Shown here piece after piece: positions 3,685 through 19,917 of a stretch of DNA of 19,917 bases (within the stretch, counting starts at the first letter, position 1; every line of letters starts with the position of its first letter). The notes beneath the pieces were generated by a model that was not told the DNA's origin, ran no database searches, and worked only from the letters and a program-made list of their open reading frames with translations. A program made the position numbers and the translations under genes. Source of the stretch: Fidelibacterota bacterium (GTDB lineage Bacteria > Marinisomatota > Marinisomatia > SCGC-AAA003-L08 > TMED6); assembly GCA_014239355.1 (NCBI GenBank), contig JAAZYZ010000066.1:1-19917 (forward strand). Direction: 5' to 3'.

Positions 3685-5226
3685 TTATTTAGTTAATTCC
3701 CCTCCACAAGAAGGGCAAAATGAAAAGTTTTTATCATTTTTAAAACCACATTCTACACAAAATTTAAATACATCCATCTTCATTTTAGAACTAGTATCTG
3801 GTTCTATAAAATTTTCACTTGAGCTATTAGAAGTAAATACCATCTCTATCTCATCATTTAATATTTGATGTAATATAGGCTTCTCAATAAATAATTCTTT
3901 CAATTGTAACCCTGATATATGATTAGCTAATTCATTAATAACTAAATAAGCTTTATTTTGTATATCTAAAGCTGCTTTCGTATTACTATTATTTTGATAA
4001 AATTGCATTAAAAATGAGTAGATAAATAATGTATGAGAATCAATTTGTTGATTAGAAAATGTTGCATGTTCTGTTTTAATCAATGTTTCTAATTCATTAC
4101 TGTTTTTTTTATGAAACTCAAAAATTAATCGAATTAATTTGAATCTTATTTTATTAATTGAATCAGATTTAAAAAAATCTTCATGATATGATATTAAATT
4201 TAAGCCTTTATTATAATCCTGATTCTTCATAAAAATAATCAATGAATAATAACAAGCCTCAATAAAAAAATCAGAATTTGTATCAGTGAGAGATTGTTCA
4301 AAATATTCTTGTGATTCAAAAAAACTATTTGAATTAAAAGCAACTATACCTTTAATAAAATAAAAATAAGGCTTTGATTGGGAAGAATCTGATAAATCTG
4401 CACACATTTTATCAACCAATCGATTCAGACCAAGTTTGCTAAAAATATATAATATAGACAATTTAATATCATCTATATTTTGTTTATGATTTGTATCATA
4501 ATCTAAATGCATTTTATAATGATAAACAGCATAAGATAAATTATGCTTATTTTGAAATTTGACTGCTGCTTGATAATGGTCTACATTAGATCTAGATCGA
4601 TTATTTAGCAAATTTAAATCATATTTGTCAGACTTAATATTTTGTTTTTTTAAATACTGATGTACTTGGTTTTGTGATTCTTCATACCAATCTAATAAAT
4701 TTAAATATAATTTAAATATAGTTAGCTTGTTTGATATAGATTTAAATGAAAAATTAGCAATTGGCCTAATAAAAAAATGATTTTTTTTCCCTCTTAAAAT
4801 CAATTCATAATCTTCATGTGCATGATTATATAAATCTTCGCTAACTGCAATTCCGCCATATTCACAAATAGGCTCAATACTAGAAGCTAACTCATATCCT
4901 AATCCATATACTTCATCATTTTTTAAAGTAATTTCACCATAATGCAATCCAATCCTTAAAATAATATGCCGAGACTTAGTATTTCTATTATTTCTATTCT
5001 TGAGTCCTTGTTGTATTTCCACTCCACTTTGGATCATATTAGTAGGGTCATCAAATATAGCTACAATAGCATCACCAATACGCTTTACAATAGACCCTTT
5101 ATATTTTTCAATAATAGGTTCTATAATTTTATCGTGCTCTTTTAGTAACTCTAATGCTAAATTCTGATCATCTCCGGTTAGTTTACTATAACCAACCATA
5201 TCTGTAAACATCACATTTTTATTCAT
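3685..5226 (-). CDS. C1-like class III nucleotide cyclase domain protein with helical repeats and C-terminal zinc ribbon
   Basis: A 513-residue soluble protein. Residues about 1-165 are a class III adenylate/guanylate cyclase domain. Both metal-binding Asp positions are present, Asp9 in F-T-D-M-V-G-Y and Asp52 in I-G-D-A-I, plus Lys48. The positions that normally hold the base-selecting Asp and the transition-state Asn and Arg instead carry Glu105, Glu112 and Ser116 (motif V-Y-G-L-G-Y-E-L-A-S-S). Alone, a homodimer should be poorly active or inactive. Residues about 170-480 are mostly alpha-helical and TPR-like, without clear consensus repeats. The C terminus is a zinc ribbon with Cys490, Cys493, Cys504 and Cys507. 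The neighbouring TolB/TPR protein ends in a ribbon of the same spacing. An AAGAGA ribosome site precedes the ATG. The domain assignment is firm; the catalytic role and nucleotide are unknown. Confidence 0.85.
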   Translation of the reverse strand: MNKNVMFTDMVGYSKLTGDDQNLALELLKEHDKIIEPIIEKYKGSIVKRIGDAIVAIFDDPTNMIQSGVEIQQGLKNRNNRNTKSRHIILRIGLHYGEITLKNDEVYGLGYELASSIEPICEYGGIAVSEDLYNHAHEDYELILRGKKNHFFIRPIANFSFKSISNKLTIFKLYLNLLDWYEESQNQVHQYLKKQNIKSDKYDLNLLNNRSRSNVDHYQAAVKFQNKHNLSYAVYHYKMHLDYDTNHKQNIDDIKLSILYIFSKLGLNRLVDKMCADLSDSSQSKPYFYFIKGIVAFNSNSFFESQEYFEQSLTDTNSDFFIEACYYSLIIFMKNQDYNKGLNLISYHEDFFKSDSINKIRFKLIRLIFEFHKKNSNELETLIKTEHATFSNQQIDSHTLFIYSFLMQFYQNNSNTKAALDIQNKAYLVINELANHISGLQLKELFIEKPILHQILNDEIEMVFTSNSSSENFIEPDTSSKMKMDVFKFCVECGFKNDKNFSFCPSCGGELTK

Positions 5227-5243
5227 AAATATCTCTTATGCTA

Positions 5244-7001
5244 TTAATCGGATAATAATGAACTACCACATCCAGGACAAAACTTAAATGAATTTTCATT
5301 ATTAAATCCACAACTTGGACAAAATTTAAAAATAATAGGTTCATCAGTATTATCGGACTCTACTACCTCAGTATCGCTAATTGTAATATCATTAACTAAA
5401 GGAATATCTTCTATTTTCATAAATATTTCTTTATGTAGAGGCGGTAACTCTAAATAATCTTGTTTTATTTTTTCATCTCTAATTCTATCAGCTTTACGAT
5501 ACAATTCATCTTGAGCTAATTTTTGACATTCCTGAGAGTGTTTATAATCTTTTATTAAATAATAAGCTTGAGATAACCACCATAATTCTCTGCCCTTATG
5601 TTTCTCTTTATGCAAAGTTTTAATTTCATCTAATATCGGATCTAATTCTTCTTTTTTCCCTTCACCTTTTTTCGCATTAATTAAAGTCTGAACACATCGT
5701 GCTGGTAAGGTATAATATTCAGTAAAACTTTGAGTTTTATCTTCATGCCTACGTCTATTGCTAAGCATAACTGCTTGATCAATATATTTAGATGCATTCT
5801 CTAAATCATTATTTTGTAAATAAGCCTGTGCTAAAAATAATGTAGTAGTATCCATTGCAATTTGATGTTTACTTTCTTGATGTGTTTGATTAGCCTGCAT
5901 CAAATACTTAATAGCCTTTTCAGGGTCTGAATTATTTAGTTCAATCAAACCTAAGTGACGATAAATCATACCAAGAGCTGCTGAATCTTTTAATTTTTTG
6001 CATAATTCTAATGCTTCTAAGTATTGTTCGTGAGCTTTTTCTGTCCTTCCAATATAATACAATAAATTTGCATAACTTGTAATAGAACGACCTAGTTGTA
6101 CTTGGCTACTATCTCTAGCCATTTTAATACTTTCCTCTCGTAAGGATATTGCTTTTGCATAATCGCCTATTCTTTTATGTACATCTGATAAATTGGCTAC
6201 ACTATTAGAAATTTCAATTTCTGGTCTATCTAATTGTCGCTTAATGCTTATTGATCGCTTTAAATAATCACTCGCCTCTTCAAATTGTGACATTTGAGTA
6301 TAACATTGGCCAAGGGTATTTAATATATTTGCTTCTCTTGATAAAATTTCATTATTAGTAGTGATCCGTAAACCTTCTTTTAAATAATTGATAGCTTTAG
6401 AATATTTTCCCATTTGCTTATAAATTATACCAAATGATTCATAAATATTAGCTAACCCAATATCATCTTTATTCTTTTTGCCAATATTTTCTGCTTCTTC
6501 TAAAATAGTAATAGCATGATCAATTTTTTTTAATCTAAATTGAATAATAGCATAAAAATTTCTAGCTGTGATATAGGTAGGTTGAATATCAAAAGCTTGT
6601 TTAAATAATGCTGCCGCAATATCTAAATCTGCTGCAGATGAGGCATTAATATATGCATATTTAGCTTTCATTAATAATTCATAAGCATGGGGGTCAATAG
6701 CTTGTTCTTTCGCTGCTTGCTTTTTTAAATCATCGGGAACCTCAATACCTAATGAATCTAAAATCTTAACTATTATTTCATTTTTGACCTGTGATAAATT
6801 ATCAGAATTTTCCTCCCAATGTTCTGACCATAATTCATTAGAATTAATAACATTATGCATAATAATAGATAATCTAAATTGATCAGCCATTTTCATTAAA
6901 CTACCCTGAATAACATAATCTACATTTAATTCCTTGCCAATTTTATTAGGTTTTTCTAAATCTTTAATTTTTAAAATACTTGCACTTGATGGCGCTGCCA
7001 A
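5244..7001 (-). CDS. TolB-like/TPR/zinc-ribbon protein, downstream part of a stop-interrupted cyclase gene
   Basis: As an independent gene this would be 585 residues starting at a TTG at 7001 with no obvious ribosome site. The same frame is open up to 7070, directly after an in-frame TAA, and the extra 23 codons (P-D-D-E-F-F-C-Y-G-I-T-D) are recognisably the start of the TolB-like domain found behind class III cyclases in many bacteria. That domain continues here with V-D-Y-V-I-Q-G-S-L and E-L-W-S-E-H-W to about residue 80. About seven TPR units follow between residues 145 and 410. The end is a zinc ribbon with Cys561, Cys564, Cys575 and Cys578. I therefore read it as the back part of one roughly 826-residue protein whose front part is the 7071-7724 gene. 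Whether it is translated, by reinitiation or readthrough, is not visible. Confidence 0.8.
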   Translation of the reverse strand: MAAPSSASILKIKDLEKPNKIGKELNVDYVIQGSLMKMADQFRLSIIMHNVINSNELWSEHWEENSDNLSQVKNEIIVKILDSLGIEVPDDLKKQAAKEQAIDPHAYELLMKAKYAYINASSAADLDIAAALFKQAFDIQPTYITARNFYAIIQFRLKKIDHAITILEEAENIGKKNKDDIGLANIYESFGIIYKQMGKYSKAINYLKEGLRITTNNEILSREANILNTLGQCYTQMSQFEEASDYLKRSISIKRQLDRPEIEISNSVANLSDVHKRIGDYAKAISLREESIKMARDSSQVQLGRSITSYANLLYYIGRTEKAHEQYLEALELCKKLKDSAALGMIYRHLGLIELNNSDPEKAIKYLMQANQTHQESKHQIAMDTTTLFLAQAYLQNNDLENASKYIDQAVMLSNRRRHEDKTQSFTEYYTLPARCVQTLINAKKGEGKKEELDPILDEIKTLHKEKHKGRELWWLSQAYYLIKDYKHSQECQKLAQDELYRKADRIRDEKIKQDYLELPPLHKEIFMKIEDIPLVNDITISDTEVVESDNTDEPIIFKFCPSCGFNNENSFKFCPGCGSSLLSD

Positions 7002-7070
7002 ATTATTAATTTTGTTTAACTCAATGTTAATAGAGTCAGTAATACCATAACAAAAAAATTCATCATCTGG

Positions 7071-7073
7071 TTA
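7071..7073 (-). other. In-frame TAA interrupting a cyclase-TolB-TPR reading frame
   Basis: The codons read L-G-stop-P-D-D-E-F-F with no change of frame. Intact relatives carry an ordinary residue (often Asp or Glu) at this point of the TolB-like domain, between the first strand and the P-D-D-E-F-F segment. The stop is followed by C. A single substitution, for example GAA to TAA, is enough to explain it. Nonsense mutation, base-call error, readthrough or reinitiation all remain possible. Confidence 0.85.
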
Positions 7074-7724
7074 CCCTAAATTATTAATATAATGCATTGC
7101 GATTTTAATATTTTGGTTAGTTGATTTTTGATAATCAAAAAATTCTACCCCCCGTTCTTTCATCTGTCCAATTAAACTATCTAAAGATTCAGAATCAAAA
7201 TCAACTTTATTATTATATACTTTAAATATACGTTCTGGGTCTTTAATGTTTTTTAATACGACCCTACCAATATCTTTTACATAAATATCTTTTTCACTTC
7301 TAATAGAATTATAAACTGCTTGGGTTGTAAATATTTCATCTCCTGAAGCCACTGATTTAATACGAGCAGCTAAATTAATGCCATCACCAAATAAATCACC
7401 ATCTTCTTCATATACTTCAGCCATATGTATACCAATTCCTACATTGATTTGAAAATCTTTAGGACTAGTAGCATTAAATTTTTTGAGTTTATCTTGTATT
7501 TGTAAAGCAGCACCTGTTGCATCTGTAGCAGATGGGAATTCTATAAAAATAGCTTCATTAATATGTTTAATAATATTTCCATAATTAGTCTGAATAATTT
7601 CTTTGAGCATCTTATCATGCTCACTTAAGATTTCTAAAGCTAATTTTTTATCTTGTTTAACTAATTGTGGGTAATTAGCTAAACCCGTAAACATAATTGC
7701 TACAATTTTTTTTCTTTGGCCCAT
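7071..7724 (-). CDS. C2-like class III nucleotide cyclase domain protein, upstream part of a stop-interrupted gene
   Basis: 217 residues. The class III cyclase domain occupies about residues 5-170. It keeps Lys53, the base-selecting Asp110, and the transition-state pair Asn117 and Arg121 (F-G-D-G-I-N-L-A-A-R). Both metal sites are altered: Gly14 replaces the first Asp (M-F-T-G-L-A) and Glu57 the second (H-I-N-E-A). This is the reverse of the loss in the cyclase-like protein at 3685-5226. The last residues (I-K-I-A-M-H-Y-I-N-N-L-G) look like the first strand of a TolB-like domain. The TAA at 7071-7073 cuts the frame there, and the domain resumes in the same frame right after it. The cyclase domain itself is complete. 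The ATG follows the upstream stop by seven bases without a clear ribosome site, so coupling is likely. Confidence 0.85.
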   Translation of the reverse strand: MGQRKKIVAIMFTGLANYPQLVKQDKKLALEILSEHDKMLKEIIQTNYGNIIKHINEAIFIEFPSATDATGAALQIQDKLKKFNATSPKDFQINVGIGIHMAEVYEEDGDLFGDGINLAARIKSVASGDEIFTTQAVYNSIRSEKDIYVKDIGRVVLKNIKDPERIFKVYNNKVDFDSESLDSLIGQMKERGVEFFDYQKSTNQNIKIAMHYINNLG

Positions 7725-9194: not shown

Positions 9195-10797
9195 ATTAAG
9201 TTTATTATTAATAAGTAGTATTGGTATAATGTGTGCGCAAGAGTATACAAGCGATCATATTGATCAAAAACAAGAAACACTTAATAATATTGATTCGGAA
9301 ATCAATTCCTTAGAAAAAAAGTTAAATCTGGAAGTTCAAAATATCGAAAACTCAGAAGAGATAATTCAAGAAATTCAAGAAAAATTAAATTTAGAGAGAA
9401 TCAATATTTCAAATAATAGATATGATAAAGAAAAGCAAAAAAAAATAATAGATGAAGCAAATATTATATTAGATAGTTTAAATAATGGTTTGTTAGTAAT
9501 CTTAGATAATAAAAAATCAGTTTCTAAAATACTAGATGAAATCAACCAAAATAAAAAAGTAATTAATTATAAATTGGTAGTTTTAGATGATAGTATTAGT
9601 GTGATAAATAAATCTATGAATAATAAACTTGACCAATTAGATGAAGTAAAAAAAACAACTAAAGATTTAGTAAAAGAAACCATTGCATTAAATAGCCCAA
9701 GTAATATAGAATTTATGTTAGAATCAGATACTTGGGATGTGTTTGTTGTAAACTCTACGCTATATCAGTTATTAATTACTAACCAAGAACAAAAATTTCA
9801 AACATTAAATACGCAATATGAAAAAATAAATTTAGACTATCAAACAGATAGTTTAATAAAAATAAATTTGAAATTAGAACAAGAGGTATGGGATAAAAAG
9901 AAAAATGAGTACACACAACAATTAAATAATTTTACTAGTTATCAAAATAAGCTAGATAAAATGATGGCTGATAAAAAGAAAGTGATAGAAAAATTAGTAT
10001 CAGAATATGAAAAATTTGGAGCTCAATTAAATCAAGCAAAATCAAAAGTTGTAGCACTTGAATTAGAATTAAATACAATTAATCAAAAAAATAAATTAGC
10101 CCTGGAAGAACAAGAAAAAATTAAATCACAACTCCTAATAAAAAAAGAATCTCGAAAAACAATTCGTAATGAAATCTTAAAATTAATTGAAAATTCTCAA
10201 AAATTTAAAGGTATAAAAATTAAAAAATTAAAAGGAAAATTGCCTTGGCCAATAAATGGGAAAATAATTACAAAATTTGGAAAGCATACAAATCCAGATA
10301 CTAAAGTGATAATTAATTATGATTTAATTGAAATACAACCAAATATGACTGAAGAAGAAATTATTATATTATTAGCAAAACAGATTAACCCAAATAATCC
10401 AAATAAATCAATAGTCAAAAAATTTCAAAATAAAACAATGAATTTAAAAAATGGAGATCGTGGTTTTGGTGTTTTTGGGCCACAAACAACAATAATGTGG
10501 AAAAAATATAACAAAATGAAAATTAAGAGTAAAAGCGAACCAATATATGCAATACACGATGGTATCATTGAAAATATAAATTTTGTTAATCCAATTGTAG
10601 GTGTAGTAATAATTATAAGACATGATGATGATTATTTTTCAGTATATAATGGAAATATAGAAGTATCAGTAATGAAAGGGAGTGTAGTTAAACCTGGCCA
10701 AAAAATTGGCTCTATTACTAAACAAAATGTTCTATCATTTCAACTTTGGAACAATAATAATCCAATTAATCCTGAACAGTGGTTGATTAAAAAATGA
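9148..10797 (+). CDS. EnvC-like murein hydrolase activator with degenerate M23 domain
   Basis: 549 residues. A signal-like hydrophobic stretch spans about residues 16-30 and ends in C-A-Q. Residues 35-350 are long coiled coil, rich in Lys, Glu, Asn and Leu, as in EnvC. From residue 365 (L-P-W-P-I-N-G-K-I) a LytM/M23 fold follows. The zinc and catalytic residues are largely gone: Glu395 sits where the D of N-G-I-D-I is expected, and the H-x-H site reads V-L-S-F-Q near residue 528. That suggests an activator of amidases rather than an enzyme. About 65 extra residues (398-463) split the M23 fold; part of them (G-D-R-G-F-G-V-F-G-P-Q-T) resembles a peptidoglycan-binding motif. The start at 9148 or 9151 lies inside the previous gene; no ATG, GTG or TTG occurs further down before the signal sequence. 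The stop overlaps the holB start (ATGA). Confidence 0.85.
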   Translation: MMSQIELYIRNIIKIKLSLLLISSIGIMCAQEYTSDHIDQKQETLNNIDSEINSLEKKLNLEVQNIENSEEIIQEIQEKLNLERINISNNRYDKEKQKKIIDEANIILDSLNNGLLVILDNKKSVSKILDEINQNKKVINYKLVVLDDSISVINKSMNNKLDQLDEVKKTTKDLVKETIALNSPSNIEFMLESDTWDVFVVNSTLYQLLITNQEQKFQTLNTQYEKINLDYQTDSLIKINLKLEQEVWDKKKNEYTQQLNNFTSYQNKLDKMMADKKKVIEKLVSEYEKFGAQLNQAKSKVVALELELNTINQKNKLALEEQEKIKSQLLIKKESRKTIRNEILKLIENSQKFKGIKIKKLKGKLPWPINGKIITKFGKHTNPDTKVIINYDLIEIQPNMTEEEIIILLAKQINPNNPNKSIVKKFQNKTMNLKNGDRGFGVFGPQTTIMWKKYNKMKIKSKSEPIYAIHDGIIENINFVNPIVGVVIIIRHDDDYFSVYNGNIEVSVMKGSVVKPGQKIGSITKQNVLSFQLWNNNNPINPEQWLIKK

Positions 10798-18640: not shown

Positions 18641-18796
18641 TTAAATAATATTTATAGTGTTAATTTGATAATCAAAAAAATATTCTAATAAAAAATTTTG
18701 GAAAGTAGATGTTTGAAACCACGCTAATACAATCCCTATAATAATGCATACTAGAATTTGAAAAATGAGATTATCTTTAATATTAATAAGATTCAT
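18641..18796 (-). CDS. Small membrane peptide, 51 residues
   Basis: A short open frame that fills most of the gap between the DUF2628-like gene and the cupin. Its ATG lies inside the last codons of the upstream gene (14-base overlap, ATGAATCTTATTAA), and it ends at TAA 18641-18643. The product has one clear transmembrane segment at about residues 11-27 (F-Q-I-L-V-C-I-I-I-G-I-V-L-A-W-F), preceded by N-I-K-D-N and followed by an aromatic-rich tail. No family is recognised. Overlapping-start organisation and membrane character, shared with the upstream small protein, support a real gene; the lack of a ribosome site and the short length count against it. Confidence 0.5.
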   Translation of the reverse strand: MNLINIKDNLIFQILVCIIIGIVLAWFQTSTFQNFLLEYFFDYQINTINII

Positions 18797-19049
18797 TTTT
18801 AGGAGTACCTAAATAACCAGATTTTAATAAATATTTTTGATGTAATTGATTAGCAAAAAATGGGATAATTAAATTAGAAAAACCTAAAGTTCCAATAGCA
18901 ACTAAAAAACAAATAATGGCCCAGGCCCACATATTTTTATATAAAAACCATAGAAATCCAAAAAATAAATTAGGCCAAGAAAAGCCTGTATAAATTGGCT
19001 CTGGATAATTATTTATAGGGTGGTATAAATAGCCTGATGTTTTTGACAT
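18783..19049 (-). CDS. DUF2628-like small membrane protein
   Basis: 88 residues. It begins with a hydrophilic stretch of about 22 residues, then F-S-W-P-N-L-F-F-G-F-L-W-F-L-Y-K-N-M-W, the aromatic membrane-entry pattern I associate with DUF2628. A second hydrophobic segment follows near residues 42-62, then N-Q-L-H-Q-K-Y-L-L-K-S-G-Y. Two transmembrane helices are likely. The function of the family is unknown to me. Its ATG comes two bases after the stop of the dockerin selenoprotein, so the two are probably cotranscribed, and the 51-residue peptide overlaps its 3' end. Confidence 0.65.
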   Translation of the reverse strand: MSKTSGYLYHPINNYPEPIYTGFSWPNLFFGFLWFLYKNMWAWAIICFLVAIGTLGFSNLIIPFFANQLHQKYLLKSGYLGTPKNESY

Positions 19050-19148
19050 ATTTACTCTAAAATAAAAGTTAATAATGTTACAATATCAGTAACATCTACA
19101 ATACCATCTTGATTAATATCAGGTATGCATTCTCCAGAAATATTATTA
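19050..19148. repeat. 99-base direct repeat, copy A
   Basis: Identical to 19819-19917, base for base. It covers the last 31 codons, the stop and two to three trailing bases of the dockerin selenoprotein gene. The two copies lie 769 bases apart in the same orientation. They diverge just after the stop codon; the other boundary is hidden by the window edge. Confidence 0.95.
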
Positions 19149-19804
19149 CCTAATATGTATTGAATAATAAAAATTGCATCTACAATATTAATTATGTTAT
19201 CAGAATTAACATCGCCTTGAGAAATATTACTACATGGGTCTGGATCGCAATCAGAACCACACTCTTCAAGCATATCGGCTATCCTACTATTAATTGACCA
19301 ACTTCCAGCATTATTCATTAAATCATACACTTGCATTTCATGATTTATAAAAACAGTGCTTGGAAATGCTCCTCCACTATTAAATAAATAAAACATCGTA
19401 GGTTGTTGTTCCTCTAGAATAATCTGACAAGAACCTCCATTTGGCATTTCTCCCCAATCTTCACATGAATAAGGTTGATTTGGGTCAGAAAATGCAATCA
19501 AAAATTTTACATGTTCATTATCTAGATAATCATGATGTAACTCGCCCGCCGGGCCAGTATGTCCTGTACGGCAAGGCCCTCACCATGAAGCTGCCATATT
19601 TATAAATATAACATTATGATTGCCACCATTTAATTCCCCATTCCAATCAGCAAGCTTCCAAGGGTCTCCATCTACATATCCATTTCCAGCATAGCATGTT
19701 TCTTTAATTACATTTTGATGTTCTTCATTTATATAATCACCTTCTTGATAATAACCAGGAAAGATTAAGGTTAAAAATAAAATAATATTTAATAAAAATT
19801 GCAT
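19052..19804 (-). CDS. Secreted thioredoxin-like selenoprotein with C-terminal dockerin (TGA read as selenocysteine)
   Basis: Read through one in-frame TGA (19580-19582), the frame gives 250 residues. Residues 1-18 are a signal peptide. A TlpA/thioredoxin-type fold follows: V-I-F-I-N-M-A-A-S-W, then U75-G-P-C78 exactly where thioredoxins have W-C-G-P-C, later the cis-Pro-like F-P-S-T-V-F-I at about 147-153. Residues 197-250 contain two dockerin-type calcium loops (D-V-N-S-D-N and D-I-N-Q-D-G), which may serve for surface attachment or sorting. The frame on both sides of the TGA is continuous and conserved in character, so a frameshift is not needed. Other window genes use TGG for Trp and TGA as stop, so a changed code is unlikely. 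An AAAGGGAG ribosome site precedes the ATG. The alternative is a nonsense mutation or read error. The redox partner is unknown. Confidence 0.8.
19553..19582 (-). promoter_or_regulatory. Candidate bacterial SECIS element with UGA codon
   Basis: Immediately after the TGA (19580-19582) the RNA can fold. One option pairs GCCGUA with UACUGGC (one bulged C) around a loop CAGGACA. Another pairs GGGCC just after the UGA with GGCCC around the same apical G-U-A/U-A-C stem. The loop guanines lie 16-17 bases after the UGA, inside the 16-37 base distance described for bacterial SECIS elements. The 39 bases after the TGA contain about 28 G or C, far above the surroundings. Confidence 0.6.
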
Positions 19805-19818
19805 AATCTCCCTTTCAC

Positions 19819-19917
19819 ATTTACTCTAAAATAAAAGTTAATAATGTTACAATATCAGTAACATCTACAATACCATCTTGATTAATATCAGGTATGCATT
19901 CTCCAGAAATATTATTA
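19819..19917. repeat. 99-base direct repeat, copy B (runs off window)
   Basis: Second copy of the dockerin 3'-end repeat. It extends to the last base of the window, so the true repeat may be longer. Confidence 0.95.
19821..19917 (-). CDS. C-terminal tail of a second dockerin-type protein, 5' part beyond window
   Basis: The last 31 codons and stop of a gene entering from the right edge. The visible part is a dockerin calcium loop (D-I-N-Q-D-G-I-V-D) and its final helix, identical to the end of the neighbouring selenoprotein gene at both protein and DNA level. It stops 16 bases before the next ATG, so both genes probably share a transcript. What the N-terminal domain is, and whether it also has selenocysteine, cannot be seen. 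Confidence 0.8.
   Translation of the reverse strand, partial: NNISGECIPDINQDGIVDVTDIVTLLTFILE

Follow-up and report, generated by a model that had tools for sequence, protein, structure and literature searches.

Selenoproteins with a UxxC center (U, selenocysteine, Sec) and a thioredoxin-like fold are already known from marine bacteria: thioredoxin-like and peroxiredoxin-like families are reported from the Global Ocean Sampling (GOS) survey (PMC2398784), and the UxxC rows in Table 1 of PMC13188914 include thiol-disulfide isomerase-like, Redoxin family and peroxiredoxin-like proteins. Selenoproteins are described as rarely retained in aerobic bacteria (PMC13188914), and three SAR406 single-cell genomes are named among the organisms with an orphan selD (PMC5029168). 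Here, we analyze a gene of this general type at the end of a 19,917-nucleotide contig of a Fidelibacterota bacterium (assembly GCA_014239355.1, contig JAAZYZ010000066.1; ‘the window' denotes this whole stretch). Its product is a putative exported TlpA/ResA-like redox enzyme with Sec encoded by an in-frame TGA and with a C-terminal dockerin; the probability that Sec decoding and the exported TlpA-like enzyme both hold is, by our estimate, about 0.87.

The window protein shares with the UxxC families of the GOS survey and PMC13188914 the Sec in the first position of UxxC, the thioredoxin-like fold, the existence of Cys homologues and the occurrence in marine bacteria. It is unlike them in that their names mention no dockerin or type IX tail, a distinction drawn from names alone, so that overlap is possible; nor is a dockerin or type IX family named among the 119 entries of the table in PMC13188914. 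An exported dockerin or type IX selenoprotein family was not found in the open-licence PMC literature searched. Compared with the ResA/TlpA/DsbE (CcmG) extracytoplasmic thiol-disulfide oxidoreductases, the protein has Sec in place of the first Cys, 12–16% identity in the best structural rows, an extra conserved Cys37 and a QPYSCxxW motif, and a dockerin where they have a membrane anchor. The ResA-like Sec family NF041054 (WAxxUGC) is matched weakly by 7 of 37 domain rows (best 2.8e-10), and the window protein, with WUGPC rather than WAxxUGC, has no match to it at E ≤ 0.01. Like type I cellulosome dockerins, the tail contains two calcium-loop repeats; unlike them, it is fused to a redox domain and not to a glycoside hydrolase.

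A gene interrupted by an in-frame TGA

The features of the gene and its product are the following.
19052..19804, minus strand: predicted selenoprotein gene, 250 codons plus TAA, with an in-frame TGA at codon 75
19808..19815, minus strand: possible ribosome-binding site AAAGGGAG, sequence judged by eye
19754..19804, minus strand: signal-peptide-like N-terminus, about residues 1–17, sequence judged by eye; helix 2–12 in the structural model
19250..19753, minus strand: TlpA/ResA-like domain, about residues 18–185, with Sec75, Cys78, Cys37, Cys114 and Pro148
19580..19582, minus strand: TGA read as Sec75 of W-U-G-P-C, with TGA or a Cys codon in 44 of 44 genomic homologues
19540..19558, minus strand: hairpin actggccc-GGC-gggcgagt, with one mismatch, resembling a Sec insertion sequence (SECIS); z 2.47, p 0.04 against synonymous recodings
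19055..19219, minus strand: type I dockerin, residues 196–250 (PF00404, 31.1 bits; PDB dockerin 1daq, E 4.5e-5)

Between the ATG at 19804–19802 and the TAA at 19054–19052, the frame contains a single TGA, in the context MAASW-U-GPCRTG. The initial annotation placed this TGA on the first Cys of a W-C-G-P-C motif, expected gene callers to split the gene into fragments of 74 and 149 residues, and saw a dockerin after the redox domain in the continued frame. All three claims hold: codon 75 lies at 19582–19580, translation under table 11 yields a 74-codon piece and an open reading frame of 149 amino acids that starts with TTG, and the PF00404 match (residues 197–244) exceeds its cut-off of 22.9 bits. 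The proposed thioredoxin-like fold is of the thioredoxin type as well, but closer to ResA/TlpA than to classical thioredoxin.

The structural model runs across the TGA position with a predicted local distance difference test score (pLDDT) above 90, and W74, U/C75, C78 and P148, i.e. the UxxC center and the conserved proline, are invariant in the 45 rows of the family alignment. The ratio of nonsynonymous to synonymous substitution rates (dN/dS) is low on both sides of the TGA in 11 pairs, at 0–0.27 upstream (one pair having saturated dS) and at 0.02–0.39 over as many as 110 downstream codons, so that both parts of the gene are retained as protein. The 45 nucleotides from the TGA onward have a GC content of 64%, against 27% for the window; this value is reached by only 14 of the 19,872 segments of 45 nucleotides, every one of which overlaps the TGA region, and is the highest in the window. 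No Pfam or NCBIfam model of the redox domain passes its curated cut-off (Thioredoxin, 14.4 against 23.5; Redoxin, 13.8 against 26.6; NF047696, 19.0 against 230), and the domain is classed as TlpA-like by its predicted fold, without being assigned to any of these models.

Sec and Cys at codon 75 of the homologues

A genome scan yielded 44 homologous loci. One of the scan patterns is [NG]QPY[ST]Cx[EQD]W, which by itself accounts for part of the invariance of the QPYSC-type motif in the loci; no pattern included the TGA/Cys site. The titles of the loci are nearly all Neomarinimicrobiota or Marinimicrobia, with one Myxococcota (L042), one member of the FCB group (L011) and TMED bins. Codon 75 is TGA in 36 loci and a Cys codon in the remaining eight (TGT in six, TGC in two), with no other codon found. 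At least five Sec/Cys changes are required on a tree of 45 rows (37 U, 8 C) in which many inner branches are weak and 22 of 42 are well supported; the window is the sister of L001, a locus in the metagenome-assembled genome (MAG) EAC25 (support 100/95), within an all-TGA clade of nine. By this comparison of sequences, Sec decoding of codon 75 is near certain.

The protein does not stand alone: it belongs to a family of paralogues that are often arranged in tandem. One such cluster (L002, 1644-8928; L003, 4633-12423) combines three TGA-containing selenoprotein paralogues and one Cys paralogue with a Redoxin-family gene and an outer-membrane-like gene (DUF6029 in L002). In L040, around position 10142, two adjacent in-frame TGAs occupy the active site (W-TGA-TGA-P-C), a possible Sec-Sec pair. 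A massive expansion, with dozens of copies per genome as the candidate counts suggested, is rejected at the sensitivity of a thioredoxin-domain profile, which yields eight matches in G017 (four with TGA inside) and seven in G020 (one with TGA); several of these are weak, and much of the earlier candidate count consisted of dockerin matches. A viral origin was discarded too, with no pattern match in viral contigs and no tblastn match in phage records.

Little seems to have been described of selenium use in this uncultured marine phylum, to which the family adds exported, tail-bearing selenoproteins; the graded Sec/Cys pairs and compact SECIS elements of the family are usable for experiment.

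A SECIS-like hairpin after the TGA

The bacterial SECIS model given in PMC13188914 is a hairpin located 16–37 nucleotides away from the UGA, with a stem of 4–16 base pairs and a loop of 3–9 nucleotides with G in the first two positions. SECIS-like hairpins of this description are found in the window and in its relatives. In the window, the core is gcccGGCgggc, with the apical GGC beginning at the 30th nucleotide after the UGA (19550–19548), a register common to L001–L003 and L005–L008, with L004 as a shifted variant. The core hairpin alone has an energy of −4.6 kcal/mol and the 55-nucleotide fold −19.4 kcal/mol, for a rule of −7.5 kcal/mol; the energy of the window hairpin is reached by 3.4% of background TGAs.

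Minimum free energy (MFE) of the whole stretch and plain folding gave negative or weak results, after which the hairpin model was tested. For the MFE of the 39 nucleotides after the codon, p < 0.05 against synonymous recodings is reached in 7 of 32 TGA rows and in none of 7 Cys rows. A contiguous-stem hairpin of −2 kcal/mol or lower follows the codon in 32 of 36 TGA genes and in none of the 8 Cys genes; of the sampled background TGAs, 630 of 5096 have one. When each gene is compared with 2000 synonymous recodings that follow the codon usage of its own contig, the mean z is 1.83 for the TGA genes (p < 0.05 in 12 of 36) and 0.57 for the Cys genes (0 of 8). L025 was left out of the hairpin tests because of its N's; because the rows share ancestry, p-values pooled across them do not count as independent and carry no weight in the conclusions. 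Twelve loci have the loop at +23; two base pairs formed entirely by third codon positions vary among them but remain paired in 12 of 12 (the first, T-A in six, C-G in four and A-T in two; the second, C-G in ten and T-A in two). Of the outer two pairs of this stem, one is broken in 3 of these loci and the other in 5. The GC-rich hairpin would be the element that guides decoding of UGA codon 75 as Sec by SelB and Sec-tRNA(UCA).

Selenocysteine machinery in the relatives

Within the window, Rfam gives three matches only, all far below the gathering scores, and ARAGORN gives none. Sec genes were counted over curated cut-offs in the 32 genomes that hold the 44 loci and in 14 control genomes. The relatives contain selB in 29 genomes, selA in 29, selD in 27 and tRNA-Sec in 23, compared with 2, 1, 2 and 5, respectively, in the controls; all four components are found in 18 of the 32, and 27 have three or more. 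The tRNA loci checked (6 of 6) are called tRNA-SeC with the anticodon tca. Every one of the 27 selD genes over the cut-off contains one in-frame TGA (context GAGUACK in G001), which implies that SelD itself is a selenoprotein in these 27 genomes (among G001-G032). In G013, selB is in two adjacent pieces (G013:C63:22870-24725), perhaps due to an assembly frameshift.

Several observations weigh against the interpretation of the gene as encoding an exported selenoprotein. The evidence on Sec genes comes from genomes of relatives, all of them MAGs, and not from that of the window species; the collinear G001 has selB and selD, no tRNA-Sec over the cut-off, and a selA that is a piece at the end of a contig of 7,910 bases, and G015, with TGA in its gene, has only selD over the cut-off. 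The window hairpin has a p-value of just 0.04, and plain folding of the 55 nucleotides around the TGA is ordinary (z −0.92; 34 of 200 shuffles as stable). The window protein also has no Por_Secre_tail match up to E 1.

Alternative readings of the dockerin, the active site and the TGA

The alternative that survives best retains the Sec-bearing exported TlpA-like reductase but takes the dockerin to be a calcium-binding spacer or stability module that tethers nothing; we give it about even odds. It is favored by the lack of a cohesin gene adjoining the selenoprotein gene and by the replacement or extension of the dockerin in relatives with type IX secretion system (T9SS) tails, PKD or beta-propeller domains. 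Against it stand cohesin domains over the cut-off in 24 of 31 genomes compared with 1 of 14 controls, and a candidate partner inside the window that is kept in L001:
7732..8280, minus strand: protein with a predicted cohesin fold, candidate dockerin partner; present on 4 contigs, the longest of 71,620 bases
One cohesin match, G014:C90:4322-4684, has an in-frame TGA inside.

In the mechanism that we propose, the signal peptide would export the protein, the dockerin may anchor it to a protein with a cohesin, and paralogues with sorting tails would leave by type IX secretion, the last two being the weakest steps. Por_Secre_tail is carried by 21 of the 45 family rows, and SprA is present in 29 of 31 genomes. 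Docking of the dockerin on a cohesin is a tentative proposal. Less likely than not is a broader picture in which the exported UxxC TlpA-like selenoproteins of Neomarinimicrobiota are placed beyond the cytoplasm and in part beyond the cell, some via type IX secretion and others docked through dockerin and cohesin, as a selenium-based extracytoplasmic redox layer of open-ocean bacteria; if true, both the location and the principle of assembly would be new for bacterial selenoproteins.

The exported TlpA/ResA-like redox domain is well supported, and an exported TlpA-like redox enzyme is highly probable. Judging by the fold and the conserved residues, Sec75 would be the attacking and Cys78 the resolving residue of the U-G-P-C center, which would cycle between selenol/thiol and selenenylsulfide and reduce disulfides outside the cytoplasm, with the possible participation of Cys114 and Cys37. 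A Sec peroxidase, with a peroxiredoxin- or AhpE-like use of the same fold, is an unlikely alternative to this disulfide reductase, which is the favored function.

Decoding of TGA as tryptophan in this lineage, as under code 4, is highly improbable. Its support comes from a search of 5.8 billion proteins, which returned 63 homologues. Standard annotation removes the active site from most of these: 50 align only from residues 82–140, downstream of the TGA, and of the 13 that cover residue 75, four have Cys and nine have the Trp expected from table 4, in the form (A/S)xWWG(P/A/S)C. However, one of the Trp entries, P0008, differs by eye very little from the L001 protein, and the L001 DNA carries TGA at the site; the Trp entries are therefore best explained as table-4 translations. 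Furthermore, an in-frame TGA is absent from all 17 other complete genes examined in the window, four of which end in TGA, TGG never occurs at the site in the 44 loci, where TGA alternates with Cys codons only, and the Sec machinery is present in the relatives. A true stop, a sequencing error or a pseudogene, consistent with termination by gene callers and with the single contig that carries the window's own copy, can be dismissed given the 36 independently assembled loci with TGA, the purifying selection downstream, the confident model across the TGA and the SECIS-like hairpins.

Locus and neighboring genes

The genes flanking the selenoprotein gene are the following.
18783..19049, minus strand: DUF2628 gene directly downstream (PF10947, 24.3 bits), with the same pair in L001
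19821..19917, minus strand: end of another dockerin gene immediately upstream, truncated where the window stops, within a 99-base exact repeat

The L001 locus is collinear with the window at 58–84% identity, with the common gene order p182 (partial in L001, at the contig end), p279, p549, p360, metG, tatD, rsmA, pepP, DUF2628 and the selenoprotein gene. With its TGA gene, this collinear locus places the window in the same lineage as L001. The loci contain no match to the sulfatase and cupin genes of the window. The 99-base direct repeat (19819–19917, identical to 19050–19148) reaches the window end and is the tail of a tandem paralogue, perhaps also an assembly break point. Farther away, at 3685–7724 on the minus strand, three consecutive genes resemble, by eye, those for adenylate-cyclase-type and tetratricopeptide repeat (TPR) proteins, and two of them finish in a CxxC...CPxCG zinc-ribbon-like tail.
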